Positions 13,191-54,846 of a stretch of 64,000 nt of DNA are shown here, piece by piece (the stretch's first letter is position 1; every line of letters begins with the position of its first letter). The stretch spans positions 2,418,001 through 2,482,000 of the forward strand of contig NC_017506.1 of assembly GCF_000166295.1 (NCBI RefSeq), in the 5' to 3' direction. Source of the stretch: Marinobacter adhaerens HP15. GTDB lineage: Bacteria; Pseudomonadota; Gammaproteobacteria; Pseudomonadales; Oleiphilaceae. A program made the translations under genes and the position numbers. The notes beneath the pieces were generated by a model. It saw only the letters and a program-made list of their open reading frames with translations, was not told the origin of the DNA and did not search any database.

Positions 13191-13296
13191 GTGGTGGTGA
13201 AAGGCCTTTCCAGGACACGCTACGAGCACATCCATGTGCGCTTGGCTGTGGCCATCCATGGCCACAGACAGTCCTGGAAAGGCCTTCCACCACCAC
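13191..13296 (-). repeat. Three-way-junction repeat, copy 1 (106 nt)
   Basis: Outer arms at 13191-13216 and 13271-13296 are inverted repeats matching at 25 of 26 positions. The 54-nt core between them, read on the minus strand, holds hairpin 1 (TGTGGCC-ATGGAT-GGCCACA) and hairpin 2 (GCACA-TGGA-TGTGC) followed by CTCGTAGCG. The core is nearly identical to copies 2 and 4, whereas the arms differ. It sits in the convergent gap between the methyltransferase gene and flhB. Reading frames here contain a translated AHMDVLVA string, which is an artefact of the repeat. Confidence 0.9.
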
Positions 13297-13371
13297 TTGT
13301 CATAACCTCCAGATATCGCTCTGGATTTATTTTGCTTGGTTGAAAGTCTCGCCATTAACCAAGATCAAAAC

Positions 13372-13408
13372 GCAGGTTGGATTAGGCGCAGCCGTAATCG
13401 AGCCTACG
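13372..13408. repeat. Degenerate GGTTGGATTAGGC...GCCGTAATC hairpin
   Basis: A short imperfect palindrome: GATTA-GGC, loop GCA, GCC-g-TAATC, flanked by GGTTG and an imperfect match on the right. It resembles the TTGGGTTA/TAACCCAA hairpin repeats scattered in many bacterial genomes. It lies between repeat copies 1 and 2. Nothing else is recognisable in 13297-13444. Confidence 0.4.
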
Positions 13409-13444
13409 ATTCTGGCTTTCAATGCGATATCGAATGGCTCAGAA

Positions 13445-13554
13445 GCGGGTTGTCGGGTGGGCCTCCCAAAAATGTCGGCGGCCATGGATGGCCGACGCCA
13501 AGCGCACATGGATGTGCTCGTAGCGGTTTTTGGGAGGCCCACCCGACAACCCGC
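13445..13554 (+). repeat. Three-way-junction repeat, copy 2 (110 nt)
   Basis: Perfect 28-bp outer arms (13445-13472 and 13527-13554) enclose a 54-nt core. The core contains TGTC, hairpin 1 (a GGCC-ATGGAT-GGCC stem), CGCCAA, hairpin 2 (GCACA-TGGA-TGTGC) and CTCGTAGCGG. It is in the opposite orientation to copy 1 in the same gap, and its arms are unrelated to those of copy 1 except for a central GGC followed by pyrimidines. It ends 45 nt before the flhB stop codon. Confidence 0.92.
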
Positions 13555-13598
13555 CAGCACCCAGACCCGCAGGCTACTTTCAGGAACCCAGCTCCAAA

Positions 13599-14734
13599 CT
13601 AGACGTCCCGCCGCAAATCCGACGGAATCGGGAACTCTGGCATACCGGGCTTGGGCCCGCGCCCCTTGCGGAACTGTCGGAGCTGGAACACATAGGCGAG
13701 CACTTGGGCAATGGCCATGTACAGGCCATCGGGAATCTCCTCGCCGATGTCGGTGTTGTGGTACACCGCCCGAGTCAGCGGCGGCGTTCTCAGAATCTCG
13801 ACTTTGTTCTCACGGGCAATTTCCATGATCTTGAAGGCTACCTCATCGGCGCCCTTGGCCACCACAATCGGCGCGGCCATCGCCTTCTGATCGTATTTCA
13901 GCGCCACTGCGTAATGGGTCGGGTTGGTGATCACCACATCTGCCGTAGGCACGTCCTGCATCATGCGGCGCTGAGCCATTTCACGCTGGAGTTGGCGGAT
14001 CTTGCCTTTGACCTCGGGTTTGCCCTCGGTGTCCTTGTATTCGTCTTTCACCTCCTGCTTGGTCATGCGCAGTTTTTTCTGGTGATCGTAGATCTGGAAG
14101 GGTACGTCGATCGCCGCGATGATGATGGTGGCGCAGGAAAGCAGGAAAAAGCTCCAGGCGATGGTCCAGAGTACATGTTCCATGGCCGGCACCACCGGCT
14201 CCTCGGCAATGGCCAACAAGTCTTCCGTGCGCAGATCGAGGATCAGAATGGCCAAGGCCATTACCAGACCGACCTTGGCAATGGCCTTTACCAGCTCGAT
14301 AAGGGAGCGCATTGAGAACATGCGCCCGAGGCCCTTGATGGGGTCCATGCGATTGAGTTTCGGGGCCACGGCTTTGCCGCTGATCAGCAGGCCGCCGATG
14401 CCGATAGAGCCGAAGATAGCGGCGATCAGCAGTAATACCAGAATGGGAGAGAGAGCCCAGGCCGCTTCCTTGGAGGATTCAATGAGCTGCACGCTCATGT
14501 GGCGCATGTCGAAGATGGCGGAGCGTTCGATAACGAAGCTATCGCGCATGATCGCCTCCAACGAGGCTCCCAGGCTGGCGCCAAACATCAGCATGCCGCC
14601 GGCGCCTGCCAGGAGGACGGCCATGGTGGCCAGCTCTTTTGAGCGCGCAGTCTGGCCCTCCTCCTTGGCTTTTTCGAGCCTTCGGGGGGTGGCCTCTTCC
14701 GTTTTTCCTGACTGTTGTCGTCTTCTTCGGCCAT
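13599..14734 (-). pseudogene. flhB: flhB, flagellar export switch protein, frameshifted at codon ~11
   Basis: FlhB is the inner-membrane export component that switches substrate from hook to filament by self-cleavage. The bulk (341 residues from an internal Met, MAVLLAGAGG) is intact, with four membrane segments and the autocleavage motif NPTH (VVITNPTHYAVAL). The natural start is the ATG at 14734 (MAEEDDNSQEK). Adding one base to the T5 run at 14702-14706 (plus strand) restores TEEATPRRLEKAKEEGQ and a 378-residue protein of family size. As written, the start is out of frame with the body. It lies 6 nt after fliR at the end of the fliLMNOPQR-flhB operon. It may be a real mutation or a homopolymer error. 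Confidence 0.92.
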
Positions 14735-14740
14735 AACTCT

Positions 14741-15526
14741 CTACGGCTGCCCCTGCAATCCCCGCATGAAATCAAACGTTTCCCGGGCGTACTGATCGAA
14801 GTGCGGCAGAAAATTGGCGTGCAGCACCCATATCGCAAACAATCCAAAAATCAGGCCAATCGGGAAACCCAACGCGAAGATGTTCATCTGGGGAGCGGCG
14901 CGCGTCATGACACCAAAGGAGATGTTGACGATCAGCACGGCAGTAACCGCCGGCAACGCCAGGAGCATGGCGGAGGCGAACATCCAGCTGATCCGGTGGG
15001 CCAATTCCCAGATTCCGGTCTGGCCGAGGCCTTCCATCCCGATGGGCAGGGTCCGGAAGCTCTCGATAAAGACTTCAAAGGCAACCAGGTGGCCGTTCAT
15101 GGCCAGGAACAACAGGGTAATGGTGATGGTATAAATCTGGGAAAGTACGGGCACGTTCACACCGTTGGCCGGATCGACCATCGAGGCAAAGCCCAGCCCC
15201 ATCTGCATGGCGATCATCTGGCCGGCAATCACGAACAACTGCCAGAGTGCGGTCAGCGCAAAGCCCATGCCGACGCCGATGAGTATCTGCTGCAGGGTAA
15301 TGACCACGGCATCGGCGCTCAGGGCTTCCACCTGAGGAACGGGCGGTATCATGGGCGCGATGAGTATGGTCATCAGCAAGGCCAGCCCGAGACGGATCCG
15401 GGCCGGCACCAGCTGGGTACCGAAAATGGGGATCACCATCAGGAAGCTGGCCAGGCGGAACAGCGGCCAGAGGTGCTGGCCGACCCATTGGCCGATCACA
15501 TCCGCGCTGATCTCCGCCGGTATCAT
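14741..15526 (-). CDS. fliR: Flagellar export protein FliR
   Basis: 261-residue polytopic inner-membrane component of the FliPQR export gate. Hydrophobic segments cover most of the length (WPLFRLASFLMVIPIFGTQL, IRLGLALLMTILIAPMI, and a C-terminal GFPIGLIFGLFAIWVL). The family feature GLGFASMVDPANG is present. It is separated from fliQ by 3 nt and from flhB by 6 nt, in the standard order. Confidence 0.96.
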   Translation of the reverse strand: MIPAEISADVIGQWVGQHLWPLFRLASFLMVIPIFGTQLVPARIRLGLALLMTILIAPMIPPVPQVEALSADAVVITLQQILIGVGMGFALTALWQLFVIAGQMIAMQMGLGFASMVDPANGVNVPVLSQIYTITITLLFLAMNGHLVAFEVFIESFRTLPIGMEGLGQTGIWELAHRISWMFASAMLLALPAVTAVLIVNISFGVMTRAAPQMNIFALGFPIGLIFGLFAIWVLHANFLPHFDQYARETFDFMRGLQGQP

Positions 15527-15529
15527 CCG

Positions 15530-15799
15530 TCAGCCGATCAGGTAGGGTATGTTGCCGAACAACCGGTTGGCATGATCCAGCAGCTGCGTGAGCATCCAGG
15601 GGCCCCAGACGATGATGACGATCAACGTAACCAGCAGGCGCGGCAGGAAGCTCAGGGTCTGTTCGTTAATTTGGGTGGCAGCCTGGAAGGTACTGACCAC
15701 AAGACCAATCACCAGCCCCGGGCCGATGATGATCGAGGCAAGAAGCACGATCATCCACAGGGCTTCGCGCAGGATGTCGATAACGGTTTCCGGAGTCAT
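15530..15799 (-). CDS. fliQ: Flagellar export protein FliQ
   Basis: 89-residue protein with two transmembrane helices (ALWMIVLLASIIIGPGLVIGLVV and LPRLLVTLIVIIVWGPWML) and the conserved QAATQINEQTLSFLP loop. It is one of the FliPQR gate subunits. Length and order (fliP-fliQ-fliR) are normal. Confidence 0.96.
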   Translation of the reverse strand: MTPETVIDILREALWMIVLLASIIIGPGLVIGLVVSTFQAATQINEQTLSFLPRLLVTLIVIIVWGPWMLTQLLDHANRLFGNIPYLIG

Positions 15800-15807
15800 G
15801 ATGCCTC

Positions 15808-16584
15808 CTATATTCCGTAACTGGCGGCGAGTGTGCCCATGATCAGGGCCCAGCCATCCACCAGAACAAAGAGCATGATCTTGAACGGCAGGGAGATGAT
15901 GATCGGCGACAGCATCATCATACCCATGGCCATGAGAACACTGGCCACCACCATGTCGATAATCAGAAACGGTATAAACAGGATAAACCCGATCTGGAAT
16001 GCGGTCTTGAGTTCACTGGTCACGAATGCCGGCATCAGGATCCAGAAAGACACGTCCTGCGGCGTCTCGTACTGCGTGTCAGAGATCCTCATGAACAGGG
16101 CCAGATCGCTCTCACGGGTCTGTTCCAGCATGAATTTCCGGAACGGTTGGCTTGCCAGCTCGACCGCCTCCAGGGAGGTTACTTCCTCCTGCATGTAGGG
16201 TTGCAGCGCCACCCGGTTGGCCTCCTCAAGCACCGGTTTCATGATGAAGATGCTGAGAAACAGGGCCAGGCCGAGAAGAATCTGGTTCGACGGTGTGGAT
16301 TGCAGGCCAATTGCCTGGCGCAGGATCGCAAACACAACGATGATGCGGGTAAAAGACGTCATCATCATAAGCATGGCCGGCAGGAACGTCAGCGCTGTCA
16401 TCAGCGCCAGTATCTGCAGGGTTACCGAGTATTCCTGGGCGCCCTCGCCTTCTCCGGGCGTCACTGTGAAAGCCGGTATACCGGGGATGCCGGAAGGCTC
16501 CTGAGCCAGCGCCAGTGGCGCCCAGACAAAGCCCGCCAAGACAATCAGGGATGGAAGCAGTCGCTTGATGGTTGCCGCAAGCAT
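15808..16584 (-). CDS. fliP: Flagellar export protein FliP
   Basis: 258 residues. An N-terminal cleavable signal ([16 protein letters not shown]) precedes the gate-forming membrane domain: [21 protein letters not shown], then [15 protein letters not shown], the FMRISDTQ loop, and the C-terminal segments [18 protein letters not shown] and [12 protein letters not shown]. These are family signatures. It follows fliO by 4 nt. Confidence 0.97.
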
Positions 16585-16588
16585 GGGG

Positions 16589-17038
16589 CTAGTCGTTCCT
16601 TGTCGGGGAAGTCCAGGATTTGCCGATCATGCCCTGCAGACGCCGGGCAAAATCACTGGAGCCGGCGCTGCCAGCCTCGACAACCGGCTCGTCAAACACA
16701 TGCAGGGTCCGGATCGCCGATGGGGTAATACCCAACAGGATCTGCTGGCCGCCCACCTCAATCAGCGCGATACGCTCGCGAGCACCAATGGCCATCACCG
16801 ACACCACCTTGATGGCGTTGTTGTTCATGCCGGTCATGCCATTCATACGGCGGATAATCCAGGCGCAGCCATAGATCACGGCAATCACTGCCACCAGCCC
16901 CAACCCCAGGCTGACAATGGTGCCAACGGTATCCGGGGCACGCACGGGTGAATCAGGGGCAACCGTCTTGGCAGTTTCCTGGGCAAAGGCCGGGTTGATC
17001 AGCAGCAGCGCCAGTACCGCAATGGATTTGGACCACAT
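16589..17038 (-). CDS. fliO: Flagellar protein FliO
   Basis: 149-residue small membrane protein that helps assemble FliP into the export gate. It has an N-terminal signal-like segment ([15 protein letters not shown]), one transmembrane helix ([21 protein letters not shown]) and a cytosolic domain with [29 protein letters not shown], the conserved FliO core. It lies between fliN (1 nt) and fliP. Confidence 0.94.
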
Positions 17039-17039
17039 T

Positions 17040-17531
17040 TTACTTCTGCAACCGCTTGATACGTTCGCCCGGGCTGATCACATCGGTGAGACGGATGCCG
17101 AACTTTTCATTCACCATGACCACCTCGCCATGGGCGATCAGGGTACCGTTTACCAGCACGTCCAGCGGTTCGCCCGCAAGCCTGTCCAGTTCGATAACCG
17201 AGCCCTGGTTCAGTTGCAGCAGGTTCCGTATCGGGATCTGGGTGTTGCCCACTTCCATGGAAATGGTGACCGGTATATCGAGAATGACGTCGATATCCGG
17301 AGCAGGACCACCACCCATGGAGGGTTCGCTTCCGGTCTCGAATTCCTCCATGGGCGCAGCCTGAACATCGTCTTCGGCCTCTCCGGTCTCGCCGGCCTCT
17401 GCCATCGCAGCGGCCCACTCGTCCTCGCGTTCGCCCTCATCACCGGACTCTTCCATGGCGGCTTCCCACTCGGCAGCCAGCTTTTCGTCTTCGCTGAGCT
17501 CCTGCTCGTCTTTCTTGTCGTCGTCAGCCAT
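17040..17531 (-). CDS. fliN: Flagellar motor switch protein FliN
   Basis: 163-residue C-ring component. The C-terminal SpoA domain (about 85-163) has ILDIPVTISMEVGNTQIPIR, GSVIELDRLAGEPLDVLVNG and VNEKFGIRLTDVISPGERI. The first about 80 residues are a very acidic extension (DDDKKDEQELSEDEKLAAEWEA in part, then EREDEWAAAM), longer than in enteric FliN but common in this group. The start overlaps the fliM stop by 8 nt. Confidence 0.96.
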   Translation of the reverse strand: MADDDKKDEQELSEDEKLAAEWEAAMEESGDEGEREDEWAAAMAEAGETGEAEDDVQAAPMEEFETGSEPSMGGGPAPDIDVILDIPVTISMEVGNTQIPIRNLLQLNQGSVIELDRLAGEPLDVLVNGTLIAHGEVVMVNEKFGIRLTDVISPGERIKRLQK

Positions 17532-18522
17532 TGCGTCCCACCTTCAATTGTTTCTTTACCTTGGGCACGGATGCCCGTTCATGAATTCTCAGTGCCAGTT
17601 TTCCGTCCCGAGTCCCCAGCGTTGCCTTGTAGATCGGGATGCCATTGGCCGTAACTGTCAGGTGTTCGGGAATCTCCACCGGGATAATGTCGCCGGCTTT
17701 CATCTTCGCGATGTCCCGCAACGATATCCGACGGCGACAGACCGTTGTGTTGATCGGTACGCTGACCTCTTTGATGTCTTCCTGAAGCGCGTTGACCCAG
17801 CGCTCGTCGACATCGTCGATGTCGCTCTGTACCCCGGCGTCGAGCACATCGCGGATGGGTTCGATCATGGAATACGGCAAGGCAAAGTGCAGTTCACCGC
17901 CGCCACCGTCGAGTTCAATGTGGAAGGTGCTGACCACAACCACTTCACTGGGACTGACGATGTTGGCCATGGCCGGGTTCACTTCCGAGCTCAGATACTC
18001 GAAATCCACCTTGAGTACCGCATGCCAGGCTTCCTTCATATCGTGGAACACCTGATCCAGCACCATCTGGACGATGCGGGTCTCGGTGGGGGTAAATTCG
18101 CGGCCCTCGATCTTGGCATGACGGCCCTCACCGCCAAAGAAATTGTCCACCAGCTTGAACACCAGCTTGGCATCCAGCACGAACAGGGAGGTGCCTCGAA
18201 GCGGACGAACCTTACACAGGTTGAGACTGGTGGGCACGTAAAGGGTGTGAATATACTCGCCGAACTTCATGATCTGGACGCCGCCGGTGGAGACATCGGC
18301 GTTGCGACGCATCAGGTTGAACAGGCTGATCCGGGTATAACGGGCAAAGCGCTCGTTGATCATCTCCAGGGTCGGCATCCGGCCCCGGACAATACGGTCC
18401 TGACTGGCGAGGTCATAGGACTTTATACCGGTGTCATCGGTCTCTTCGTAGGTATCAATGTCACCGTCGTCCACCCCGTGGAGGAGCGCATCGATTTCGT
18501 CCTGTGACAACAAGTCCTGCAT
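17524..18522 (-). CDS. fliM: Flagellar motor switch protein FliM
   Basis: 332-residue C-ring protein that binds CheY-P through its N-terminal peptide (MQDLLSQDEIDALLHGV, the conserved EIDALL motif) and then interacts with FliG through the middle domain (residues about 45-230, with the GGxG-containing FFGGEGRH). The C-terminal SpoA domain contacts FliN. All parts are intact. Because CheZ, the expected CheY-P phosphatase, is broken in this assembly, signalling to FliM would be biased if that frameshift is real. Confidence 0.97.
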   Translation of the reverse strand: MQDLLSQDEIDALLHGVDDGDIDTYEETDDTGIKSYDLASQDRIVRGRMPTLEMINERFARYTRISLFNLMRRNADVSTGGVQIMKFGEYIHTLYVPTSLNLCKVRPLRGTSLFVLDAKLVFKLVDNFFGGEGRHAKIEGREFTPTETRIVQMVLDQVFHDMKEAWHAVLKVDFEYLSSEVNPAMANIVSPSEVVVVSTFHIELDGGGGELHFALPYSMIEPIRDVLDAGVQSDIDDVDERWVNALQEDIKEVSVPINTTVCRRRISLRDIAKMKAGDIIPVEIPEHLTVTANGIPIYKATLGTRDGKLALRIHERASVPKVKKQLKVGRNG

Positions 18523-18558
18523 ACTTAGTCCTGCCCCTGAAGTACCGTGGCCCGTGCG

Positions 18559-19068
18559 CTATTGCACGACAAAATTTCTGAATAACACCCGCTTGATGGC
18601 GGGCTCGCCTTCCTGCTCCAGCACCTGATTCACCGTGGTCAGCATCCGCTCGGCCAGGCCACTCCGGCCCTCGGGCGTTTGCAGCTCGTTGAAGTTACTG
18701 CTACCGAGGACAGTCACCAGCTGGCTTCGAATCAGAGGCATGTGCAGCTTGGCAGCTTCAAGCGCCTGTGGATCGGTGGACTCCAGCGCCAGATAAGCCT
18801 GGGCGTAGCGTTGGCGGCCCTCAGCCTGAACCGTGGTAACAATGGCTTTTTCGATCAGGTAGTAGCTGCTGGGAATAAAGGTTTCCTCTGGAACCTCGGT
18901 TGCGTCACCCTCTTCCTCACCCATGCCCGGAAGACCGCCGCCCAGGAACCACAGGGTACCCACCACAGACAGCACAATGGCCAGGATCACCACCACAACC
19001 AGCATGATGATCAGCTTCAGTTTTCCCTTCTTGGCAGGAGCCGCTTCAGATTCGTTATTTTCAGCCAT
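18559..19068 (-). CDS. fliL: Flagellar basal-body protein FliL
   Basis: 169-residue single-pass inner-membrane protein that associates with the stators. A Lys-rich cytosolic tail precedes one helix (LIIMLVVVVILAIVLSVVGTLWFL). The periplasmic FliL domain ends with the conserved IKRVLFRNFVVQ. It is the first gene of fliLMNOPQR-flhB, with a sigma54 promoter at about 19131-19147. Confidence 0.95.
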   Translation of the reverse strand: MAENNESEAAPAKKGKLKLIIMLVVVVILAIVLSVVGTLWFLGGGLPGMGEEEGDATEVPEETFIPSSYYLIEKAIVTTVQAEGRQRYAQAYLALESTDPQALEAAKLHMPLIRSQLVTVLGSSNFNELQTPEGRSGLAERMLTTVNQVLEQEGEPAIKRVLFRNFVVQ

Positions 19069-19130
19069 AATGTTCGCTTTGCCAGAAATCCGTCACGGGG
19101 AGCAATTTTCCGCGACTTTTCAGGATTGGA

Positions 19131-19147
19131 TGCAAAGGGCGGGCCAG
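19131..19147 (-). promoter_or_regulatory. Sigma54 promoter for the fliL operon
   Basis: Minus-strand CTGGCCCGCCCTTTGCA contains TGGCCC-N5-TTGCA with GG and GC 10 nt apart, and predicts transcription starting about 50 nt before the fliL ATG. It lies in the 165-nt gap between fliK and fliL, which holds nothing else obvious. Confidence 0.75.
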
Positions 19148-19233
19148 AACACCCAACCTTCCCGTTCAGAACAGCAGTTTAGCGTTGCCGGGAAGGATGG
19201 GCAAAGGAGATTGGAAGAGAATATCGAAGGGTA

Positions 19234-20424
19234 TCAGGCGAAGATGTCTACTTCGCCTTTCCAGCTGAGATCAAGGCTGCCGGTGCTGATGCCTTCATCG
19301 TCCTGATCGCCAGCGACCAGCGATGCCGAACCGCTACCGGAGCCATCATCGTTTCCGGTGCCCTGCTCGCCGGTCTGCTGGCGAGGCGAATCGGAAACAT
19401 CGAAGCCTGCCAACGACAGTCCCTGCTCACCCAGCATATCCCTGAGCCGGTGGGAATGCAGTTCAAGCTGGTCACGGACCACGGGATTGGCCGAATGGAC
19501 CGTAATACTCGCCTGTTCGTTCTGCACCCGGACCTTGACCTCCATGGGGCCCATGTCCGGTGGTGTCAGGTGGATTTCGGCAACCGACATGTTGCGGGCC
19601 GTCAGCCAGCTGAGCTTACCCACCAGTTTGTCGCCCCACTCTGCATGGCCTACCGGCACATCAATGGACGTAGCATAACCTCGCAATGGCGCAGCATTCT
19701 CGGCCGTCAGTTTTGCTGCCCCATTGGCATTATTCGCCGCTTGCTGGGACACCAGATCCATGGCGGACTGGAAGCGGCCAGAATTGATCAACGAGCCGGA
19801 ATCCGCATTGCGGCCGGAGTCGGTGAGCACTGAGGCCTTCATGACATCTGTCAGTGTCGCATCGCCGGAAACACCGCCGGATCCGGACTGAGCTTTCTGA
19901 CCCGAGGCCCCTGTGAGAAGGCCACTGAACAATCCGGCAACGGAATTCGTCTGGCCCGAACCACCGGTGGCAGCGTTGACGCCGACTCCCGGCATTGTGG
20001 CTGACATGGCGGACTCACCGGCACCCCCGGCTTTTGGATTCAGCCAGGACTGCAACTCAACAAAGGTAAGAGGAAGCGCCGTCGGCTCTGATTTGCCATC
20101 ACCGGCAACAGCGGCCTCGCCCGCGTCCCGTGATTCAGCATCCGTGGCAGCGTCGGCTTTTTCGCCACCCTTTGGATCAGCGTTCGCGTTTGCTTCCGTT
20201 TTCGTCTCTGAAGAAGTGTCCTGGGTCGCCCGGGATTCATCGGCAGATCTGGCCTCAGCGTTCCGATCCGCCCTCTGGCGATCGAGCCGCTTTTGCTCAG
20301 CCTGGGAGACAGAGTCAAAATCGCTTTTCCTGTCAGCCGGATCCCGGCTGGTTCCGGATTTTGACGGGCCGGGATCTTGTTGCGTCCCGGGCGCGGGGGT
20401 TTGGGGAAGAACCATCTGGGCCAT
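19234..20424 (-). CDS. fliK: Flagellar hook-length control protein FliK
   Basis: 396-residue secreted ruler that stops hook growth and triggers the FlhB switch. The first about 120 residues are low-complexity, rich in Asp, Ser, Ala and Glu, and disordered. The conserved C-terminal Flg_hook domain (about 275-360) carries VAEIHLTPPDMGPMEVKV, ITVHSANPVVRDQLELHSHR and LRDMLGEQGLSLAGFDV. It is preceded by its own sigma54 promoter and followed by fliL. Autocleavage of its partner FlhB needs the intact flhB. Confidence 0.92.
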   Translation of the reverse strand: MAQMVLPQTPAPGTQQDPGPSKSGTSRDPADRKSDFDSVSQAEQKRLDRQRADRNAEARSADESRATQDTSSETKTEANANADPKGGEKADAATDAESRDAGEAAVAGDGKSEPTALPLTFVELQSWLNPKAGGAGESAMSATMPGVGVNAATGGSGQTNSVAGLFSGLLTGASGQKAQSGSGGVSGDATLTDVMKASVLTDSGRNADSGSLINSGRFQSAMDLVSQQAANNANGAAKLTAENAAPLRGYATSIDVPVGHAEWGDKLVGKLSWLTARNMSVAEIHLTPPDMGPMEVKVRVQNEQASITVHSANPVVRDQLELHSHRLRDMLGEQGLSLAGFDVSDSPRQQTGEQGTGNDDGSGSGSASLVAGDQDDEGISTGSLDLSWKGEVDIFA

Positions 20425-20517
20425 GGCAACCTCTTGCCGCTTTTATCGCATTGTCGCCCTCACCTTGCCGGACCTGGCCGGTGCATGGGCGGTTAATCCA
20501 CTCAATGCGAAGGACAA

Positions 20518-20534
20518 AGCAATTGTGATGCCAG
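20518..20534 (-). promoter_or_regulatory. Sigma54 promoter for fliK
   Basis: Minus-strand CTGGCATCACAATTGCTT has GG-N10-GC and a TTGC -12 element. The predicted start is about 83 nt upstream of fliK. It lies in the 153-nt gap after hptB. Confidence 0.75.
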
Positions 20535-20577
20535 CGCACACCTGCTTCACCTGACAAAGGGCCTGAATCGACCTGAT

Positions 20578-45790: not shown

Positions 45791-45976
45791 CCGGCTATTT
45801 CAGTGTTGGTGGTAACAAGAAGGATTTCCGTTCAAGCGTGGGAGTTTAATGGCAGACGGTCAAGTTAATCCATGGTTGGCCTTTCGGACTGCCTTGAGCG
45901 GCTCAAGGGCGAGTCGTTTGTGGCGTTGAAATAAGCTAACCTGTCAGATACTTAGCAACAGACCGGACCCTGGCGA

Positions 45977-46984: not shown

Positions 46985-47027
46985 CCGACTGACGAGCCCT
47001 CTAAAACCAACAACAAAGAGACCATCC

Positions 47028-48515
47028 ATGGATGCATCGCAATTGCCACTGCACTATCAGTCGGCCCATGACCTCTTGAAACAACTTGAAGCCGGCACCC
47101 TGACCAGCGAGGCACTTACCACGGCCTTGTTGGAGAGGATCCGCGAGCATAATCCAACCATCAACGCCGTCGTGACCCTGGACGAGCAAAAGGCTCTCAC
47201 CAACGCCCGGAGGGCTGATGAGGAACGTGCAGCCGGCTCGGCAAGGGGCCCATTGCATGGTCTTCCCCTTACCCTGAAAGACACCTGGGAAGTGGCGGGC
47301 ATGACCTGTACCGCGGGTGCCCCAGCCCTGAGGGATCACAAACCCAACCGCCACGCCGATGTCGTGCAGCGGCTGGAAGACGCCGGAGCCATTATTCTGG
47401 GCAAGACCAATGTGCCCATCTACGCCACCGATCTCCAGAGCTACAACAAACTGTTCGGGGTAACCAACAACCCCCACAATCTGGCGCACACTCCCGGTGG
47501 CTCCTCAGGTGGTGCTGCGGCCGCCCTGGCTGCAGGCATGACACCCCTTGAAGTGGGCAGCGACCTGGCCGGCTCCATTCGCACACCCGCGCACTTTTGT
47601 GGCGTGTTCGGCCACAAACCAACCCGCTCGCTGGTGTCATTTCGGGGTCACATCCCGGGGCCACCTGGAACCCAGTCCCGACCGGATCTGGTCGAGGGCG
47701 GCCCGATGGCGCGCAGTGCCGGGGACCTGGAACTCCTGATGAGCGTCATTGCCGGCCCCCGGCCAGCTGAAGAGCGCAGCTGGTCCCTGGCAATGGCCCC
47801 CTCGGAATTAAACAGTCTCGATCAGGCCCGGGTCGGCCTATGGCTGGAAGATCCCTTGTGCCCGATAGACCAGGAGCTGACCGAGGGTTATCAGAACCTG
47901 GGCAACGCATTGTCTGAACGGGGCGCACTGGTCACTGAGGCCCGCCATCCATTGCTGAGCCTCGAACACATTCTCCCCGCTTATTTCAATCTGCTGGGCG
48001 CCCTGCTAAGCACCTCTCTGAAGCCCGCCCAACGCCGACAGATGAAATGGATTGCCCGGCTGGAACCCTGGCTCAAATTTCTGGGGCCGATGACGCCTTT
48101 CATTGGTGAATACGGACGAGGTGTGAATCAGCCGGTCTACCAGTGGATGGCCTGGAGCGAAATGCGCGAGAAGATGCGGGCCGAGATCGAATCGTTATTT
48201 CAGGAAGTGGACGTTCTGCTGACGCCGGTGACACCCACCACCGCCATCCGGCATGACCACAGCCATCCGGTCTTCAAACGCCGGATTACCGTCGCCGGTC
48301 AGCCAAGGGCGTACATGGACCAGTTCTGCTGGATCGCCTTCGCCACCTTGTTGGGCCTGCCTGCCACCTCCGTACCCATCGGACGAACAAAAGAAGGCCT
48401 GCCATTCAATGTTCAGGTGATTGGTGCGCCGGGGATGGACCTGACCACAATCGGTTTTGCGGGACTCCTGGAGGAGGCCGGGTTGGCAGGATTTCTCACG
48501 CCCGAGGGCCTCTGA
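47028..48515 (+). CDS. Amidase-signature family hydrolase
   Basis: 495-residue cytosolic enzyme with the Ser-cisSer-Lys triad: K84 (PLTLKDTWEV), S159 (PGGSSGGAAAALAAG) and S183 (GSDLAGSIRTPAHFCGV). The amide substrate is unknown; Glu-tRNA amidotransferase subunit A is unlikely as no gatB/gatC adjoin. It follows the voltage-sensor-like gene by 43 nt and is closed by the terminator at 48536-48564. Confidence 0.9.
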   Translation: MDASQLPLHYQSAHDLLKQLEAGTLTSEALTTALLERIREHNPTINAVVTLDEQKALTNARRADEERAAGSARGPLHGLPLTLKDTWEVAGMTCTAGAPALRDHKPNRHADVVQRLEDAGAIILGKTNVPIYATDLQSYNKLFGVTNNPHNLAHTPGGSSGGAAAALAAGMTPLEVGSDLAGSIRTPAHFCGVFGHKPTRSLVSFRGHIPGPPGTQSRPDLVEGGPMARSAGDLELLMSVIAGPRPAEERSWSLAMAPSELNSLDQARVGLWLEDPLCPIDQELTEGYQNLGNALSERGALVTEARHPLLSLEHILPAYFNLLGALLSTSLKPAQRRQMKWIARLEPWLKFLGPMTPFIGEYGRGVNQPVYQWMAWSEMREKMRAEIESLFQEVDVLLTPVTPTTAIRHDHSHPVFKRRITVAGQPRAYMDQFCWIAFATLLGLPATSVPIGRTKEGLPFNVQVIGAPGMDLTTIGFAGLLEEAGLAGFLTPEGL

Positions 48516-48535
48516 CAATCGTGAGAGTAGAAACG

Positions 48536-48564
48536 AAAAAAGCCGGCTCTAGGCCGGCTTTTTC
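48536..48564. terminator. Bidirectional rho-independent terminator
   Basis: AAGCCGGC-tctag-GCCGGCTT with A-rich left and T-rich right flanks (GCCGGC arms at 48542-48547 and 48553-48558). It serves the amidase gene on the plus strand and the initiator tRNA gene on the minus strand. Confidence 0.9.
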
Positions 48565-48568
48565 ATAT

Positions 48569-48645
<77 letters not shown>

Positions 48646-48690
48646 TCAAACTGGTTGTTTCTCAGGGAACCCCTGATCAACGTGGCGCGC

Positions 48691-48719
48691 ATGATAAGGG
48701 GTGTGATCGACACTGTCAA
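48691..48719 (-). promoter_or_regulatory. Sigma70 promoter for the initiator tRNA
   Basis: Minus-strand TTGACA, 17-nt spacer, TATCAT, followed by a GC-rich GCGCGCC discriminator typical of growth-rate-controlled stable RNA promoters. It lies 25 nt after the thiolase stop codon, so the tRNA need not be read through from that gene. Confidence 0.85.
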
Positions 48720-48744
48720 AGGAAAGTTCCGGATTTCCGAAAAC

Positions 48745-50088
48745 TCACCTCTCCAGAATCGCTGTAACCCCCTGGCCGCCCGCGGCACAGATGGAAATCA
48801 GGCCTCGTCCGCTGCCCTTCTCCTCCAGCAACTTGGCCAGAGTCGCGACAATTCGGGCACCGGTGGCCGCAAAGGGGTGACCGGTTGCCAGGCTGCTGCC
48901 TTTTACATTGAGCTTGTCGCGGTCAATGCTGCCCAGAGGTTTGTCCAGGCGCAGGCGCTCCTTGCAGAAGGTCGGATCCTCCCAGGCCTTCAAGGTACTC
49001 AAGACCTGTGAAGCGAAAGCTTCATGGATTTCGTAAAAATCGAAATCCTGAAGGCTCAGCCCCGCTTTTTCCAGCATCCGGGGCACTGCATAGGCAGGTG
49101 CCATCAGCAGCCCCTCTTTCTTGTCCACAAAATCCACCGCCGCATTTTCAGAAAACGTCAGCCAGGCTTTCACCTCGTGATTGTTGGCTTTCGCCCATTC
49201 CTCACTGGCCAGCAACACGCAAGAGGCGCCATCCGTCAACGCGGTGCTGTTGGCCGCGGTCATGGTGCCGTTTTCCCGATCAAAAACCGGCTTGAGCGTA
49301 GCCAGCTTCTCCAGCGTGGTATCCGGACGCAGAATATTGTCCTTCTCCAGCCCCGCCATCGGCGTCAGCAAATCGTTGAAGAACCCTTCATCATAGGCCC
49401 TGGCCAGCTTCTGATGGCTCTCCCAGGCCAGCTTGTCCTGATCTTCCCGGGCAATATCCCACTCCTTCGCCGTCACCTGTGCATGCTCGCCCATCGACAT
49501 TCCCGTGCGAGGCTCACCATTCTGAGGCACCTCGGGCTTCAGATGTCCGGGCCGAAACCGCCCAAGAATTTTCAATCGATCCCCGGCGGTCTTGGCCCGG
49601 TTCAGATCCAGCAAAATCTCACGAAGGCCCTCACCCACACCAATCGGTGCATCCGACGTGGTGTCGGTTCCGCCGGCAATACCACATTCAATCTGCCCCA
49701 GGGCAATCTTGTTGGCCACCAGAATCGCCGCCTCCAGCCCCGTGCCACAGGCCTGCTGGATGTCATAAGCCGGCGTCTCCGGCGCCAGCCCACAACTCAT
49801 CACCGCCTCCCGGGTCAAATTAAAGTCCCGCGAATGCTTGATGACGGCCCCGGCAGCCACTTCACCCAGCCGCTGGCCCTCCAGGCCATACCGATCCACC
49901 AGACCTCGCAGCGCAGACGTCAGCAACTCCTGGTTACTGATCTTGCTGTAGACCGTATTCGACCGCGCGAACGGAATCCGGTTGCCACCCAACACCGCAA
50001 CGCGACGAATCGCCGAAGGGGCGGCGCTGGTCTTTTTCGAAGTAGCGGTTTTCTTACGTGAAGTTTTCGATGCTTCTGCCATGATCAT
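48745..50088 (-). CDS. fadI: Acetyl-CoA C-acetyltransferase, FadI-like thiolase
   Basis: 447-residue thiolase of beta-oxidation or acetoacetyl-CoA metabolism. Catalytic residues: acylation Cys in DIQQACGTGLEA (C114), His in GHPFAATGARI and a second Cys in ISICAAGGQG. The N-terminal about 25 residues are a Lys/Ser/Thr-rich extension. FadI is the closest named type, but this may be a free-standing enzyme because no fadJ adjoins; instead an HMW FabG is divergent. The start may be 50088 or 50082. Confidence 0.85.
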   Translation of the reverse strand: MIMAEASKTSRKKTATSKKTSAAPSAIRRVAVLGGNRIPFARSNTVYSKISNQELLTSALRGLVDRYGLEGQRLGEVAAGAVIKHSRDFNLTREAVMSCGLAPETPAYDIQQACGTGLEAAILVANKIALGQIECGIAGGTDTTSDAPIGVGEGLREILLDLNRAKTAGDRLKILGRFRPGHLKPEVPQNGEPRTGMSMGEHAQVTAKEWDIAREDQDKLAWESHQKLARAYDEGFFNDLLTPMAGLEKDNILRPDTTLEKLATLKPVFDRENGTMTAANSTALTDGASCVLLASEEWAKANNHEVKAWLTFSENAAVDFVDKKEGLLMAPAYAVPRMLEKAGLSLQDFDFYEIHEAFASQVLSTLKAWEDPTFCKERLRLDKPLGSIDRDKLNVKGSSLATGHPFAATGARIVATLAKLLEEKGSGRGLISICAAGGQGVTAILER

Positions 50089-50120
50089 TTCATCCGTTTT
50101 GAAGTAACCGTGATGTCAGG

Positions 50121-50233
50121 GGGAACATTGGGGGAAGGCTTCCCGGAACCGTGGAGCGCCAAGGATGGCGCGACCGAGCCCTACAGGGACGTATTCACGG
50201 GCGTGTTCTGGGAAGCCTTCCACCAATGTTCCC
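50121..50233 (+). repeat. Three-way-junction repeat, copy 3 (variant core, 113 nt)
   Basis: 29-nt arms at 50121-50149 and 50205-50233 match at 27 of 29. The 55-nt core has hairpin 1 (GCGCC-AAGGAT-GGCGC) like the other copies, but hairpin 2 is CCC-TACA-GGG followed by ACGTATTCACGG instead of the GCACA/TGTGC form. It lies in the 316-nt divergent gap between fadI and fabG; otherwise that gap holds no obvious feature. Confidence 0.85.
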
Positions 50234-50404
50234 TGCACCCAGGTTGAGTTGTTAATGTCGACAGTTTAGCGACAACCGGAAACGCCTCATTGGCACCCCT
50301 GACAACACCCTACAGGCATTGAGTCAATCCAAAAACTATCCGATTCTTTACCCTGTAGGACGATTCGCATCCAGCAACCCGAATGCAAACACAAGGAAGC
50401 CCCC

Positions 50405-51811
50405 ATGTCTGACCTCTATCTTAGAATAGTAAACACCCCGGTTGGCAAAACCGCCGCACAATCCCTGGGCCTGCCAGCGCCCGTGCCCCTGAAACGCCTC
50501 AAGCGTACCGATCAGCCGTTTATCGAGGGCGACGTACTTGTAGGCGCAGCCAGCGGAGGCAAAGCCATCGCGGCAATCGGAAGCACCCTCAGCGCCAGTG
50601 CAGCCACATTGCACCACGCCAGCGGGAATGAACGGCTGAAAGACTCATCCAAGGCCGGCAACAAAGCCCGACCCATGGACCTGAATTCGGAAATCGATCA
50701 AAAATTTTCCGCCCTGGTGTTTGACGCCACCGGGTTTAAAGGACCCGACGACCTCCGGGCCCTTTACGATTTTTTCCACCCCACCATCAAGAAACTCGGC
50801 GGCAACGCTCGGGTACTGGTCATTGGTCAAAACCCCGCCACTTGCAGAAAGGCGCCCCAGGCCGCTGCCCAACAGGCCCTGGAAGGCTTTGTTCGCAGCA
50901 TCGGCAAGGAAATCGGAAAGAAAGGCTCTACTGCAAACCTGCTATGGATGGCACCGGGGGCCGAACAGCAACTGGAATCCAGTGTCCGGTTCTTTCTCTC
51001 CGCACGCTCTGCCTACGTGTCTGGCCAGGTGGTCAGAATCGGCAAAAGTGATTCGGCGCCTGCGACCAATCCTGTCGCTCCGCTGACAGGAAAAGTTGCC
51101 CTGGTTACCGGGGCCTCCCGCGGCATCGGCGCAGCTATTGCAAAAACCCTTGCAAGAGACGGCGCCACGGTTATCGGACTCGATATTCCGCCTGCCATGG
51201 AAGATCTGCAAAGAGTCACATCTGCCATCAACGGCAAGGCACTGGCTTGCGATATTACTGACGAAAAGGCGCCGACGCTCATCGCCGACTTCATCGATGA
51301 ACATTTTGGCGGAGTGGACCTGGTCATTCACAACGCAGGGATCACTCGTGACAAAACCCTTGGCAACATGCCCGAGCACTTCTGGGATATGACAATTGCC
51401 GTAAACCTGACCGCCGAGGAATTGATCGACGAAGAGTTGGCCAAGCGAGAACTGATGAAAGAGAACGGCCGCATCGTCTGCATCTCCTCCATCAGCGGCA
51501 TTGCCGGGAATTTCGGGCAGACCAATTACTCAACCGCCAAGAGCGGCGTGATCGGCTACGTGGAAGCCATGGCCCGGCAACTGAAGAAAGGCGTAACCAT
51601 CAACGCCGTTGCCCCGGGTTTTATCGAAACCCAGATGACCGCAGCCATGCCGGTCACCATCCGCGAGGCCGGTCGCCGGATGAACAGCCTCTCCCAGGGC
51701 GGGCAACCCGTTGACGTGGCTGAAACCATCGCCTGGTATTGCAGTCCTGCGTCCAGCGGAGTGAACGGCAACGTGGTGAGAGTCTGCGGCCAGTCGCTGA
51801 TTGGCAAATAA
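50405..51811 (+). CDS. High-molecular-weight 3-oxoacyl-ACP/CoA reductase (FabG-like SDR)
   Basis: 468 residues: an N-terminal about 215-residue Rossmann-like domain of the HMW FabG (FabG4) type, then a complete SDR domain with cofactor motif TGASRGIGAAIA (about 235), NNAG-equivalent HNAGITRDK and catalytic Ser-Tyr-Lys (SSISGIAGNFGQTNYSTAKSG). It reduces 3-oxoacyl thioesters. It is divergent from the FadI-like thiolase, suggesting a shared role in acyl-CoA metabolism. A terminator follows immediately. Confidence 0.9.
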   Translation: MSDLYLRIVNTPVGKTAAQSLGLPAPVPLKRLKRTDQPFIEGDVLVGAASGGKAIAAIGSTLSASAATLHHASGNERLKDSSKAGNKARPMDLNSEIDQKFSALVFDATGFKGPDDLRALYDFFHPTIKKLGGNARVLVIGQNPATCRKAPQAAAQQALEGFVRSIGKEIGKKGSTANLLWMAPGAEQQLESSVRFFLSARSAYVSGQVVRIGKSDSAPATNPVAPLTGKVALVTGASRGIGAAIAKTLARDGATVIGLDIPPAMEDLQRVTSAINGKALACDITDEKAPTLIADFIDEHFGGVDLVIHNAGITRDKTLGNMPEHFWDMTIAVNLTAEELIDEELAKRELMKENGRIVCISSISGIAGNFGQTNYSTAKSGVIGYVEAMARQLKKGVTINAVAPGFIETQMTAAMPVTIREAGRRMNSLSQGGQPVDVAETIAWYCSPASSGVNGNVVRVCGQSLIGK

Positions 51812-51812
51812 A

Positions 51813-51844
51813 AAAAGGGCCGATCCTTTCGGATCGGCCCTTTT
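51813..51844. terminator. Rho-independent terminator after the FabG-like gene
   Basis: AAGGGCCGATCC-tttc-GGATCGGCCCTT with flanking A and T tracts, 12-bp stem. It works for fabG on the plus strand and for the tRNA cluster on the minus strand. Confidence 0.93.
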
Positions 51845-51852
51845 CGGAATTT

Positions 51853-51928
51853 TGGTGGGTGGTACTGGGATCGAACCAGTGACCCTCGCCTTGTAAGGGC
51901 GATGCTCTCCCAGCTGAGCTAACCACCC
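51853..51928 (-). tRNA. tRNA-Val (TAC), copy 1
   Basis: 76 nt with encoded CCA, anticodon TAC, standard cloverleaf (GGGTGGTTAGCTCAGCTGGG start, GGTTCGATCC T arm). It is the last of a three-tRNA operon and is identical to the copy at 52091-52166. Confidence 0.98.
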
Positions 51929-51946
51929 GGGTATACTGCATAAAAA

Positions 51947-52023
51947 TGGCGGAGCGGACGGGACTCGAACCCGCGACCCCCGGCGTGACAGGCCGGTATT
52001 CTAACCAACTGAACTACCGCTCC
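51947..52023 (-). tRNA. tRNA-Asp (GTC)
   Basis: 77 nt with encoded CCA, anticodon GTC, acceptor GGAGCGG/CCGCTCC with G73. It lies between the two tRNA-Val genes. Confidence 0.98.
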
Positions 52024-52090
52024 GCATCAATTCTGACCCTCGGGCCCGAACCTGAAACCGGATGGGGTGATCCGGTGATGCATTTGAAAG

Positions 52091-52166
52091 TGGTGGGTGG
52101 TACTGGGATCGAACCAGTGACCCTCGCCTTGTAAGGGCGATGCTCTCCCAGCTGAGCTAACCACCC
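52091..52166 (-). tRNA. tRNA-Val (TAC), copy 2
   Basis: 76 nt, identical to the copy at 51853-51928. It is the first gene of the tRNA operon, 68 nt downstream of the promoter. Confidence 0.98.
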
Positions 52167-52233
52167 ACTTTCAAGCCTTCCAAAGGCGCTCACTTGCTTG
52201 GCAGCCGCGCTGTCTCAACCAAGTGAGAGGCGC

Positions 52234-52261
52234 ATTTTAAGCATTTGGCTGGCGGTGTCAA
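52234..52261 (-). promoter_or_regulatory. Sigma70 promoter of the tRNA-Val/Asp/Val operon
   Basis: Minus-strand TTGACA, 16-nt spacer, TAAAAT, then a GCGCC discriminator as in stringently controlled stable RNA promoters. An AT-rich stretch upstream (52262-52300) could act as an UP element. Confidence 0.88.
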
Positions 52262-52327
52262 ATATTTTCCCGGAATTTTATAAAAAAACCTGCAAGCCAT
52301 TCAAAAGCGTACAGTTTTTGAGCAAAC

Positions 52328-52609
52328 CTACTTTCTTGCAGCGGTCTTGCGCGTCGCTTTTTCAGCCCGCGGCACCGGCCGATCCTGCCCCGCCTTCTGC
52401 GCTTTTTCCTGGAGAGAAAGTTCGCTGACACGGCTGCGCCTGTCTTCGGGAACCGCTCGATTAGCGAGAGAGCAATTCAGATCGTCCAATCGTTTCTGCA
52501 GGTCACCCCAGCTATCCAGCAACTGGGGAACGACATCATCCGCCAGTTTTTCGAATCTGAGTCGAAGAGAATCCTTGAGAGCCATTGTTTTTAAATTTTC
52601 CCGAGCCAT
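52328..52609 (-). CDS. Small conserved hypothetical protein
   Basis: 93 residues, helical and charged with a basic Ala/Lys-rich tail (VPRAEKATRKTAARK). No known domain recognised. Starts at 52609 (AGGTGA close upstream) or 52585 (MALKDSLRLRFEKLADD) are possible. It is 26 nt downstream of the lipoprotein gene in the same direction. Confidence 0.6.
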   Translation of the reverse strand: MARENLKTMALKDSLRLRFEKLADDVVPQLLDSWGDLQKRLDDLNCSLANRAVPEDRRSRVSELSLQEKAQKAGQDRPVPRAEKATRKTAARK

Positions 52610-52635
52610 TCACCTGCCATCAGTGTAGTCAGCAG

Positions 52636-53508
52636 TCAGAAAATCCACCAGCCGCCTCCGGATTCTGCTTCTTCTCTGCGCTCCCGCTCCATCTCCAACT
52701 CCGCGTATTCCTGCTCCAGCCTCTTGATCTTGCGATCGGCTTCAAGAGGCACGGTTGGGCCACCACCGAACGGCCAGAACCAGGACGTGGATTCGTACTT
52801 GCCCTCCTGCTTCAGGCGCTCGATTTCGAGCTCACGCTCCTCCTCCAGAAGCACCAGTTGCCGCTCGTAATCCAGGTCTTCGTTAACTTCCACAATGGAG
52901 GTAGCCGCATGGTTCGGCGCCAACAGATCACTGTTCAGAAAACGGGTGGAAACAATCTCCTCTGCCTGCATGGCATATTCCCGCGTTACCAGCTGGAGGT
53001 CGCCCTGAGTCAGCGGATGATCCGGATCCAGGTCCGGATGCCGTTGGCCCGGTTCCGAAAGCTCGTTATAACGCAGGTAATAGATCTGTCCTGGCTCAAC
53101 GTTCAGCGTGGCATCGGCGATCAGGCTAAGACTGAAGGAGTTCATGCCCTCCAGACCCAGCAAAGGTCGGCGCATGGCGATGTGGCGCTCTCCGGGGCTT
53201 ACCTCGAGCCAGGTGAAGCTGTCGTTGCGAATGTTGAAATAGTGGGTGTCATCTATGTAGACACTGGGCGCTTCAATTTCATCAGCCGCCCATTGGGAGT
53301 GTGTCCTGTAGAAGTACAGCACCGCGTTGCGCCGATCCCAGCTATCGTTGTCGATATGAACGAAGTCATGCCCGGAAACCGGATGCAGGAACGACCCGAC
53401 GCTTTTGCCGATGGACTGATAAACCGTACAGCCCGGCAACACCAGCAACAGCCACATCGCTGCCAGAAGCCGGGGAACAAGAAAAACGGAAGGCACTCGG
53501 GTTTTCAT
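52636..53508 (-). CDS. Lipoprotein with DUF2846-like domain
   Basis: 290 residues. A lipobox LVLPGC (about residues 22-27) predicts a lipoprotein. The middle region has AVLYFYRTHSQWAADE, PSVYIDDTHYFNIRND and the C-terminal EPGQIYYLRYNE strand, resembling DUF2846 proteins. The last about 85 residues form a charged coiled coil ending GGGWWIF. No function is known. It is followed by the small gene at 52328. Confidence 0.72.
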   Translation of the reverse strand: MKTRVPSVFLVPRLLAAMWLLLVLPGCTVYQSIGKSVGSFLHPVSGHDFVHIDNDSWDRRNAVLYFYRTHSQWAADEIEAPSVYIDDTHYFNIRNDSFTWLEVSPGERHIAMRRPLLGLEGMNSFSLSLIADATLNVEPGQIYYLRYNELSEPGQRHPDLDPDHPLTQGDLQLVTREYAMQAEEIVSTRFLNSDLLAPNHAATSIVEVNEDLDYERQLVLLEEERELEIERLKQEGKYESTSWFWPFGGGPTVPLEADRKIKRLEQEYAELEMERERREEAESGGGWWIF

Positions 53509-53647
53509 TGTTGTTAACTCTTCATCCTGATTGCGAGTTGCCTGATCTTAACAACTGCACAAAAACAGAAATGAGAGCTACCGCAAGGGATGGCTACAAA
53601 CCGTTACAAAACCCGAAATGCCGATTGCTGGACCACGCTACGGGCAG

Positions 53648-54628
53648 TTACTGCCCGCTGATCTGGCTCCGTAACTGATTCACCTCTTCAGACAGCCGAA
53701 CCAGACGGGAGGTCAGTTGTGACCGCGAGGCATCGATAGACTCAACCGTGCGCTTGAGACTGGCCACCTCATTACGGAGCGCCTGAACCCGGCCATCATC
53801 GGCCAGCTCATCGGTCTCCCGCTCCAGGGCCGAGATCCGACCCTCCATGCCGCTGATTCCCAGCTTCTGCTCCTGCTCAAAACGCCGGATACGGCTCTCG
53901 ATCACCTGATCCACATCCGCCAGCTGCTGGCTCAGTTTCGTCAACTGATCCGTTGCCTGCCGGTTGGCATCCTGCAGCGCTGAAATCGACGTCTCCGTCT
54001 GTTGTTTCAGGGCTGCAAGATCGGCAGAAAGCGAGGACCGGACCTTTTCAACCGACGTCTCAAGCGAACCAATGGCCTGCTTGCCCTCCGCAAGGCCGGA
54101 TTCCAACGCGGCAATCCGTTCCTGCTGCTCATCCAGGCGCTTCTTGTTGCGTTCATTGGCAATGGCCCAGAGTTTCCGGATCTCACTGTCTGCCGTATCC
54201 AGACGCTTCGTATGCGCCGCGATCTGCTCCTCCAGAGTAGCGCCCCGCTCCTGAAGGTTTTCCCCCGTTTCCGAAAGCTCGCCCTCAAACCGAGCAAGCG
54301 CCAGCTTGCTCTGCCGCGCCCAGTAATCCGCTTCTTCAAGCTGCCCTTCCAACGCCTGAACCCGCTGCTCCTGGGAGTACCAGCCAGCACCCGCGGCAAC
54401 GGCCAGCACAATCAACAACACCCACAGCATTGCCGAGCTACTGCGACCATTGCTGCCGCCACTTCCGTTACCGCCCTTGCCACCTTTGGGAGGCTTCGCT
54501 GGTGTCGACGGTTCGCCTTTCCCTCCGGACGCTGGCCTGGACTTTCTTTCCGCTGCCTTCTTCGGCTCGGCACTACCAATCGGTCGCTCAGCCCTCAACT
54601 CATCATCATCTGGACGGATGGGTTCCAT
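53648..54628 (-). CDS. Single-pass membrane protein with long periplasmic coiled coil, function unknown
   Basis: 326 residues: a disordered Lys/Pro/Gly-rich cytosolic N-terminus (1-65), one transmembrane helix (SSAMLWVLLIVLAVAAGAGW, about 64-84) and a predicted coiled coil over about 90-326 (heptads such as AKRLDTADSEIRKLWAIANE variants; many Gln/Glu/Leu). No enzymatic domain is visible. It is the first gene leftward from the purE divergent gap, 139 nt upstream of the lipoprotein gene. Confidence 0.75.
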   Translation of the reverse strand: MEPIRPDDDELRAERPIGSAEPKKAAERKSRPASGGKGEPSTPAKPPKGGKGGNGSGGSNGRSSSAMLWVLLIVLAVAAGAGWYSQEQRVQALEGQLEEADYWARQSKLALARFEGELSETGENLQERGATLEEQIAAHTKRLDTADSEIRKLWAIANERNKKRLDEQQERIAALESGLAEGKQAIGSLETSVEKVRSSLSADLAALKQQTETSISALQDANRQATDQLTKLSQQLADVDQVIESRIRRFEQEQKLGISGMEGRISALERETDELADDGRVQALRNEVASLKRTVESIDASRSQLTSRLVRLSEEVNQLRSQISGQ

Positions 54629-54736
54629 TACAGCTCCTGACTATGGACGGTTAAAACAATAGGGATCGATAATACCTGTACTTAGGCGCAGGTAAAAATG
54701 AAGGGGCGGTCATGCCGACTCCTCCCGAGGGTTTGG

Positions 54737-54846
54737 GGCAGAGTTGAGGGGCTTTTTGCGGAAATGTCTGAAGCCAAGGATGGCTTCAGTCAAGCGCACA
54801 TGGATGTGCTAGTAGCGGTTTCCGGAAAAAGCCCCTCAACTCTGCC
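54737..54846 (+). repeat. Three-way-junction repeat, copy 4 (110 nt)
   Basis: 28-nt arms (54737-54764 and 54819-54846) match at 27 of 28. The 54-nt core has TGTC, hairpin 1 (CTGAAGCC-AAGGAT-GGCTTCAG), TCAAGC, hairpin 2 (GCACA-TGGA-TGTGC) and CTAGTAGCGG. It lies in the divergent gap between the coiled-coil gene and purE and ends 16 nt before the purE -35 box. Confidence 0.92.

Follow-up and report, generated by a model that had tools for sequence, protein, structure and literature searches.

What maintains a palindromic element whose outer arms pair with each other in every copy while their letters differ from copy to copy? The question is raised by a 64,000-nucleotide (nt) stretch of Marinobacter adhaerens HP15 DNA (NC_017506.1, positions 2,418,001–2,482,000; hereafter the window). 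An initial annotation of the window had described four such elements of about 110 nt and had offered selection for structure, inverted duplication at insertion, or arm-to-arm conversion as explanations. Our analysis indicates that the elements are probably structured RNA modules of the TwoAYGGAY kind, which would offer two binding sites to the regulator CsrA with the GGA-bearing strand acting. Papers are cited below by PMC number.

Results

Fold of the four elements in the window

All four copies were present where they had been placed, with arms of 26–31 base pairs (bp) and cores of 52–55 nt by the boundaries of our detector (Table 1). A search with covariance model R1 (see below) recovered exactly these four in the window, at genome positions 2431193 (−), 2431449 (+), 2468126 (+), and 2472741 (+). 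When the GGA strand of each copy was folded as RNA, a long stem closed two hairpins, in agreement with the three-way junction that had been proposed; the z-scores of copies 1–4 were −10.4, −9.2, −8.6, and −10.7, and 0 of 200 shuffles per copy were equally stable. The loose pattern said to be common to the inner arms was also seen (CTTTCCAAAA / TTTTGGAAAG). Copy 1 lies on the minus strand and copies 2–4 on the plus strand, and the core subtype of copy 3 differs from that of the other window copies. The strand of copy 1 and the subtype of copy 3, together with the ANGGA loops and the match to TwoAYGGAY and CsrA described below, are additions to the initial annotation.

Copies across the genome and the host order

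A BLAST search of the whole genome with copy 1 as the query gave 44 matches, two of which were copy 1's own arms. Model R1 was built from an alignment of 35 diverse elements (consensus of 34 pairs) and found at least 86 copies in the genome at an expectation value (E) ≤0.01, a lower bound because scoring covered 150 of 1800 candidates. In the host order, where up to 27 candidates per genome were scored, the same model at E ≤ 1e-5 had matches in 53/145 genomes, representing 39/91 genera. When copy 2 was used as a DNA query instead, similar sequence turned up in 25/25 genomes of the genus and in 0/13 others. Among the 80 records listed by a scan for the exact pattern, all but four were from Marinobacter; the remainder came one each from Idiomarina, Rhodopirellula, Oleiphilaceae, and Halomonas. 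The elements thus occur outside the window as well, both elsewhere in this genome and in other genomes. The copy on contig C2 had no match in a plasmid collection.

Covariation of the stem and strand asymmetry

Double changes were found among the paralogues (35 elements) in 27/34 predicted pairs and in 4/7 predicted hairpin pairs. Orthologues were compared at one conserved site, flanked by genes of the enoyl-CoA hydratase and biotin carboxylase families, which we take to be liuC/liuD-like. All 30 species loci were inspected there. The element was detected in 24, always in the same orientation and with differing arms, at 167–171 nt before the anchor in 21 and at 180–203 nt in three; two loci missed by the detector hold both loops (L233 and L254), one is degenerate with one loop (L253), and three are element-free. 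The core of L253 (genome G050), like that of L141 (genome G002, upstream of a thiolase gene), seems to carry extra inserted hairpins.

The orthologue alignment (A2) comprised the 24 detected elements, with L233, L253, and L254 left out. Pairing was found in 96.0% of 958 cells, versus 74.0% after shuffling and 34%–46% when the partners were slid by 1–3 columns, a comparison in which the structure, drawn from one of the aligned sequences, is favored over its slid versions. Two-sided changes occupied 211 cells versus 58 in shuffles. Of 500 shuffles, none reached the observed pairing or two-sided count, and the observed number of pair types was equaled in two. Covariation is thus present, and neither condition that the initial annotation named as refuting it (a larger fixed arm consensus lacking covariation, or confinement to the window) holds.

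Non-Watson–Crick cells in the paralogue arms comprised 71 GU, nine AC, and 48 others among 2410 cells; with stricter arm ends, GU:AC was 52:4 and 27:2, and the orthologue arms held 26 GU, three AC, and 22 others. Binomial p values for GU versus AC ranged from 4e-13 to 2e-5, calculated over cells that are not independent. An AC mismatch becomes a GU pair when the opposite strand is read, so the asymmetry points to the GGA strand as the one whose fold seems to be kept. The data suggest that the fold of one strand appears to be under selection, which fits RNA. Selection for structure is thus supported by covariation among paralogues, by covariation among orthologues at one site, and by the GU:AC asymmetry.

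Loops and CsrA

Ninety-two distinct elements were collected, and two were omitted from the loop and arm counts. In the remaining 90, both loops read C-A-N-G-G-A-X-G, with all four bases occurring at N and T, C, or A at X, a tally that is not unbiased because the detector demanded A.GGA. The first three stem pairs were Watson–Crick in 270/270 cells of each hairpin; the 24 AC cells of hairpin 2 were confined to the ninth pair counted outward, which is past the end of the stem. The spacing from GGA to GGA of the two loops was 23–25 nt.

The high-affinity RsmE/CsrA consensus is a hexaloop ANGGAX that directly follows the C-G closing pair of its stem and has N and X looped out (PMC4005645). The same hexaloop and closing pair were found in the elements, within the detector's demand for A.GGA. 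The genome has two CsrA genes (PF02599), a canonical one at C1 1385142 and a second, diverged one at C1 705541; one was checked and matched CsrA equivalogs. An RsmZ-like RNA was rejected as a candidate, since the RsmZ model gave one sub-threshold match (18.9 bits, E 0.07) and control genomes matched too.

Relation to the TwoAYGGAY family

The Rfam model of TwoAYGGAY (RF01731; gathering cut-off, 43 bits) gave 32 matches in the genome at E ≤ 1, two of them over the cut-off (44.7 and 43.6 bits). Each of the 32 coincided with an R1 copy on the same strand, as confirmed by script for the 31 on contig C1 and by coordinates for the C2 copy. When 17 candidates were scored per genome of the host order, RF01731 matched 24/145 genomes at E ≤ 0.001 and passed the cut-off in 13/145, and several of these genomes had 15–16 matches.

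Two hairpins with AYGGAY loops inside an external stem characterize TwoAYGGAY, and this arrangement was found in the elements, with a second loop letter that is not always a pyrimidine. A further trait, tandem G-A pairs in one stem (PMC4333381), was noticed on visual inspection of some subtypes (e.g., GAGGGCC/GGCCCGAA) and was absent from others. A table of 2010 listed TwoAYGGAY as a probable RNA that is probably not cis-regulatory (PMC2864571), and Rfam classes RF01731 as Cis-reg; CsrA binding has been proposed from the motif, with an external stem called "not well conserved" (PMC4333381). On sequence and predicted structure, the best reading of the elements is as high-copy relatives of TwoAYGGAY. 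Matches to Rfam microRNA families were below the cut-offs of those families and were taken as chance matches to long hairpins.

Arm divergence between copies and between relatives

Sixty-one of the 85 chromosomal copies were re-detected for the flank and arm work, and the 59 with usable arms were compared. Over 24 nt, the best identity between left arms was 0.875 and the mean of all pairs was 0.52, confirming that the arms are copy-specific. Two equal-arm pairs outside this comparison (C1:1033 with C1:1015879, and C1:4077603 with C2:91261) sit in duplicated segments of ~2.7 kb (98% and 94% identity, respectively).

For the comparison of relatives, 400 kb of the source genome (G000) were set against 400 kb of genome G009 and 320 kb of genome G023. 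For 17 of 20 elements, G009 had a partner on the same strand. Identities of the left arms covered the range 0.56–1.00 and were ≤0.77 in 10/17, while the flanks of these loci were mostly 90%–99% identical and identity on the 3′ side averaged ≥0.95 from 80 nt past the core. Element-free spacers between conserved genes had a median identity of 99.4% (2/89 below 85%). Their contrast with element-bearing spacers rests on the arm-identity and 3′-flank comparisons and not on the five element-bearing spacers obtained from crude gene calls (n = 5 only; median, 0.953; 1/5 below 0.85). The count of matched changes used 15 of the 17 G000–G009 locus pairs: 69 arm changes were two-sided (65 of them Watson–Crick in both genomes) versus 17.6 expected if independent, and 26 were one-sided. 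At five loci (157735, 279989, 283473, 292533, and 371806), the arm of G000 or G009 was nearer to the distant G023 than the two were to each other, and uniformly fast arm mutation was rejected on this ground. The G023 partner of the element at G0 116445 was seen in one comparison and missed in the arm-identity comparison.

Upstream of purE, the element was present in 8/30 loci, in the same orientation and within 6 nt of the same place; at the thiolase gene it was present in 3/30. The core hairpin of copy 4 was single-copy in the five genomes searched (at purE in four and elsewhere in G052), so at purE the core was inherited while the arms differ, and replacement by unrelated paralogues is unlikely there as the sole cause of the allele jumps. 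At G0 248816, 283473, 369433, and 371806, where the core type also differs between alleles, such replacement may have occurred. One G009 locus was a mosaic, with one arm from each of two alleles. At the conserved site, the G009 allele and a scar in genome G069 share a 12-nt word, a weak signal with the next best at 11. The sharp differences between alleles of near relatives probably came from recombination of alleles near the element, and we infer that the arm differences as a whole reflect such allelic recombination together with ordinary compensatory change. Arm-to-arm conversion is not required by these data but may have contributed; the mosaic locus is one observation in its favor.

Empty sites

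Loci lacking the element were also compared, as the initial annotation had suggested. At two loci with a clean presence/absence contrast, the empty allele lacked the entire element plus ~20–30 nt beyond it. No significantly long word was common to an arm and the empty allele at either locus: the longest were of 6 nt (379/500 shuffles as long) and 8 nt (49 and 52/500). As they were not found in these two empty alleles, the arms were seemingly not made from the target, and inverted duplication at insertion, in the form of a target-derived duplication, is unsupported. The element-free loci of the conserved site, L228, L248, and L250, share words of 12, 15, and 24 nt with the right-side sequence of element-bearing species, words that look like deletion scars.

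Genomic context and neighbors

Of the 85 chromosomal copies, 84 were placed relative to genes (the other lies at an edge). None was inside a called gene, and two overlapped a gene end; 27 lay between convergent genes and 15 between divergent genes. Copy 3 is flanked by divergent genes, a thiolase gene (−) and a 3-oxoacyl-acyl carrier protein reductase gene (+). Neighbors less than 1 kb apart were head-to-head (left −, right +) in 12/12 cases, nine of them within 180 nt. The same order was found in 20/22 pairs picked by eye among the matches listed in the searches of the order, the exceptions being one +− and one ++.

The 3′ flank is A/C-rich over 40 nt (A 0.33, C 0.29, G 0.22, and T 0.15). This flank (e.g., window 13555–13580) is weakly shared between copies and is followed by AGGCTA, a word present in 11/61 right flanks and in 0 left flanks. 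A GTAG-type palindromic repeat (GTAGGTCGGATTA...TAATCCGACCTAC) was seen in some pair spacers (C1 1443069/1443346 and 2607311/2607538) and, in degenerate form, at window 13376–13412. A composite of the element with this repeat was rejected, its words occurring in 3/9 pair spacers and clearly in two.

Table 1. Positions of the elements, of the two loops of copy 2, and of head-to-head pairs (window coordinates unless C1 is given)
Feature	Position	Strand	Description
Element copy 1	13191..13296	− (GGA strand)	Arms 26 bp, core 54 nt; RF01731 33.1 bits, E 0.0018
Element copy 2	13445..13554	+	Arms ~29 bp, core 52 nt; head-to-head with copy 1; RF01731 36.8 bits, E 0.00026
Copy 2, first loop with closing pair	13483..13490	+	CATGGATG, read from sequence
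Copy 2, second loop with closing pair	13507..13514	+	CATGGATG, read from sequence
Element copy 3	50121..50233	+	Core subtype: GCGCC hairpin and TACAGGGACGTA hairpin
Element copy 4	54737..54846	+	Upstream of purE; core hairpin TGAAGCC/GGCTTCA
Head-to-head pairs	13191–13554; C1 659753/659950, 1443069/1443346, 3431789/3431982, and others		

Discussion

The fold, the covarying stem, the loops, and the family match point to TwoAYGGAY-kind RNA modules with two-site CsrA binding, the reading that we consider probable. The GGA-bearing strand would be the acting strand. On it, a stem of ~28 bp, free in its letters and selected for pairing, would present two C-G-closed ANGGAX hexaloop hairpins, and two GGA motifs 23–25 nt apart would suit one CsrA/RsmA dimer. 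The arms would differ because only their pairing is constrained. We infer that the elements are transcribed, bind CsrA, and have a regulatory consequence, which may be local control of the mRNA in which an element resides or joint titration of CsrA by all copies. Such a role would be exercised from dozens of intergenic copies, at least one of which is kept in place across most of the species examined.

Several observations weigh against this reading. The copies that lie between tandem genes number 22 in sense and 20 in antisense orientation; this even split is the main weakness of a cis-regulatory role and argues against a general one. A consistent left-flank promoter was not seen in 61 copies, and a promoter of the element's own was rejected, since the search gave just a weak ATATC word (12 left versus 0 right among the same copies). 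At the conserved site, 8/9 hairpin pairs are invariant, so covariation there is evidence for the stem and not for the hairpins. The GU:AC asymmetry would also be expected if one strand folded as single-stranded DNA. As for the family match, window copies 1–3 score under the RF01731 cut-off (33.1, 36.8, and 25.0 bits), copy 3 (E 0.288 in the genome search) is absent from the listing of a separate Rfam search, and copy 4 had no RF01731 match at E ≤ 1 in the genome search.

Much of the genomic context would suit a non-autonomous mobile palindrome, akin to a repetitive extragenic palindrome (REP), a REP doublet forming a hairpin (REPIN), or a miniature inverted-repeat transposable element (MITE), in which one DNA strand folds, a transposase recognizes the loops and stem, and a head-to-head pair transposes, or once transposed, as a unit. 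Several features agree with it: the many copies, their position between genes, patchy presence at purE and the thiolase gene, and the prevailing head-to-head order in this genome and among the pairs picked by eye; moreover, single-stranded DNA of one strand could favor GT over AC. It is nevertheless unlikely, given that the 59 copies included no recent equal-arm copies, that the two equal-arm pairs are segmental duplications, that one site is occupied in 24/30 species loci, and that the loops match an RNA-binding consensus. Very improbable, in our judgment, is a DNA-level process in which one arm serves as template for the other, through template switching or conversion, and the arms stay complementary without selection. 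The excess of two-sided changes between near relatives and the mosaic locus would follow from it, but copying does not predict a GU count ~eightfold over AC, and the arms were not found in the empty alleles.

An RNA structure could also serve another end, as an mRNA stabilizer, a processing site, or a transcription barrier, with loops that bind a different protein or no protein at all. The fold and the strand asymmetry do not identify a partner, and the 27 copies between convergent genes are in keeping with such roles, whereas both loops follow the CsrA pattern, in which A, GG, and A are fixed and N and X vary freely; we therefore rate these roles as quite unlikely. If the CsrA reading holds, a wider possibility, tentative for now, is a distributed Csr system of at least 80 intergenic two-site modules working besides or in place of a few sponge RNAs. 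CsrA would then read the summed transcription through many loci, and the changing stem would prevent recombination between copies.

TwoAYGGAY is a motif of unknown function, for which we found one motif-based proposal of CsrA binding (PMC4333381). In Marinobacter, where the elements number dozens per genome, covary clearly, and are retained at one site in most of the loci inspected, the CsrA hypothesis can be tested directly in a laboratory strain. Should CsrA bind them, the RNA targets of a global regulator would include dozens of scattered sites, most of which fall below the Rfam cut-off (2/86 pass). The elements are also a good system in which to measure how stem pairing is kept during letter turnover. 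In the literature searched, a partial coverage with most subscription journals outside it, no dispersed TwoAYGGAY or CsrA-binding repeats were found in Marinobacter.

Like REPs, bacterial interspersed mosaic elements (BIMEs), and REPINs, the elements are dispersed, intergenic, palindromic, and often in inverted order. They differ in size and build: REPs are palindromes of 20–40 bp (PMC3733652), whereas the elements span ~110 nt and fold as a three-way junction with a variable stem and conserved loops. With TwoAYGGAY they share paired hairpins with AYGGAY-like loops in a poorly conserved external stem, and 32 copies matched in the same register and strand. Most copies here are below the cut-off, however, their loops are ANGGAX and not strictly AYGGAY, and they are high-copy and dispersed with head-to-head neighbors, although RF01731 also has many matches in some genomes of the order. 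Paired GGA motifs in hairpin loops are likewise a feature of sponges of the CsrB/RsmZ type. Those are small RNAs with several GGA sites (PMC4333381, PMC4005645), and the CsrA-related RNAs described in Alcanivorax are two single RNAs rather than repeats (PMC9788540); here, each element holds two sites and many elements are dispersed.

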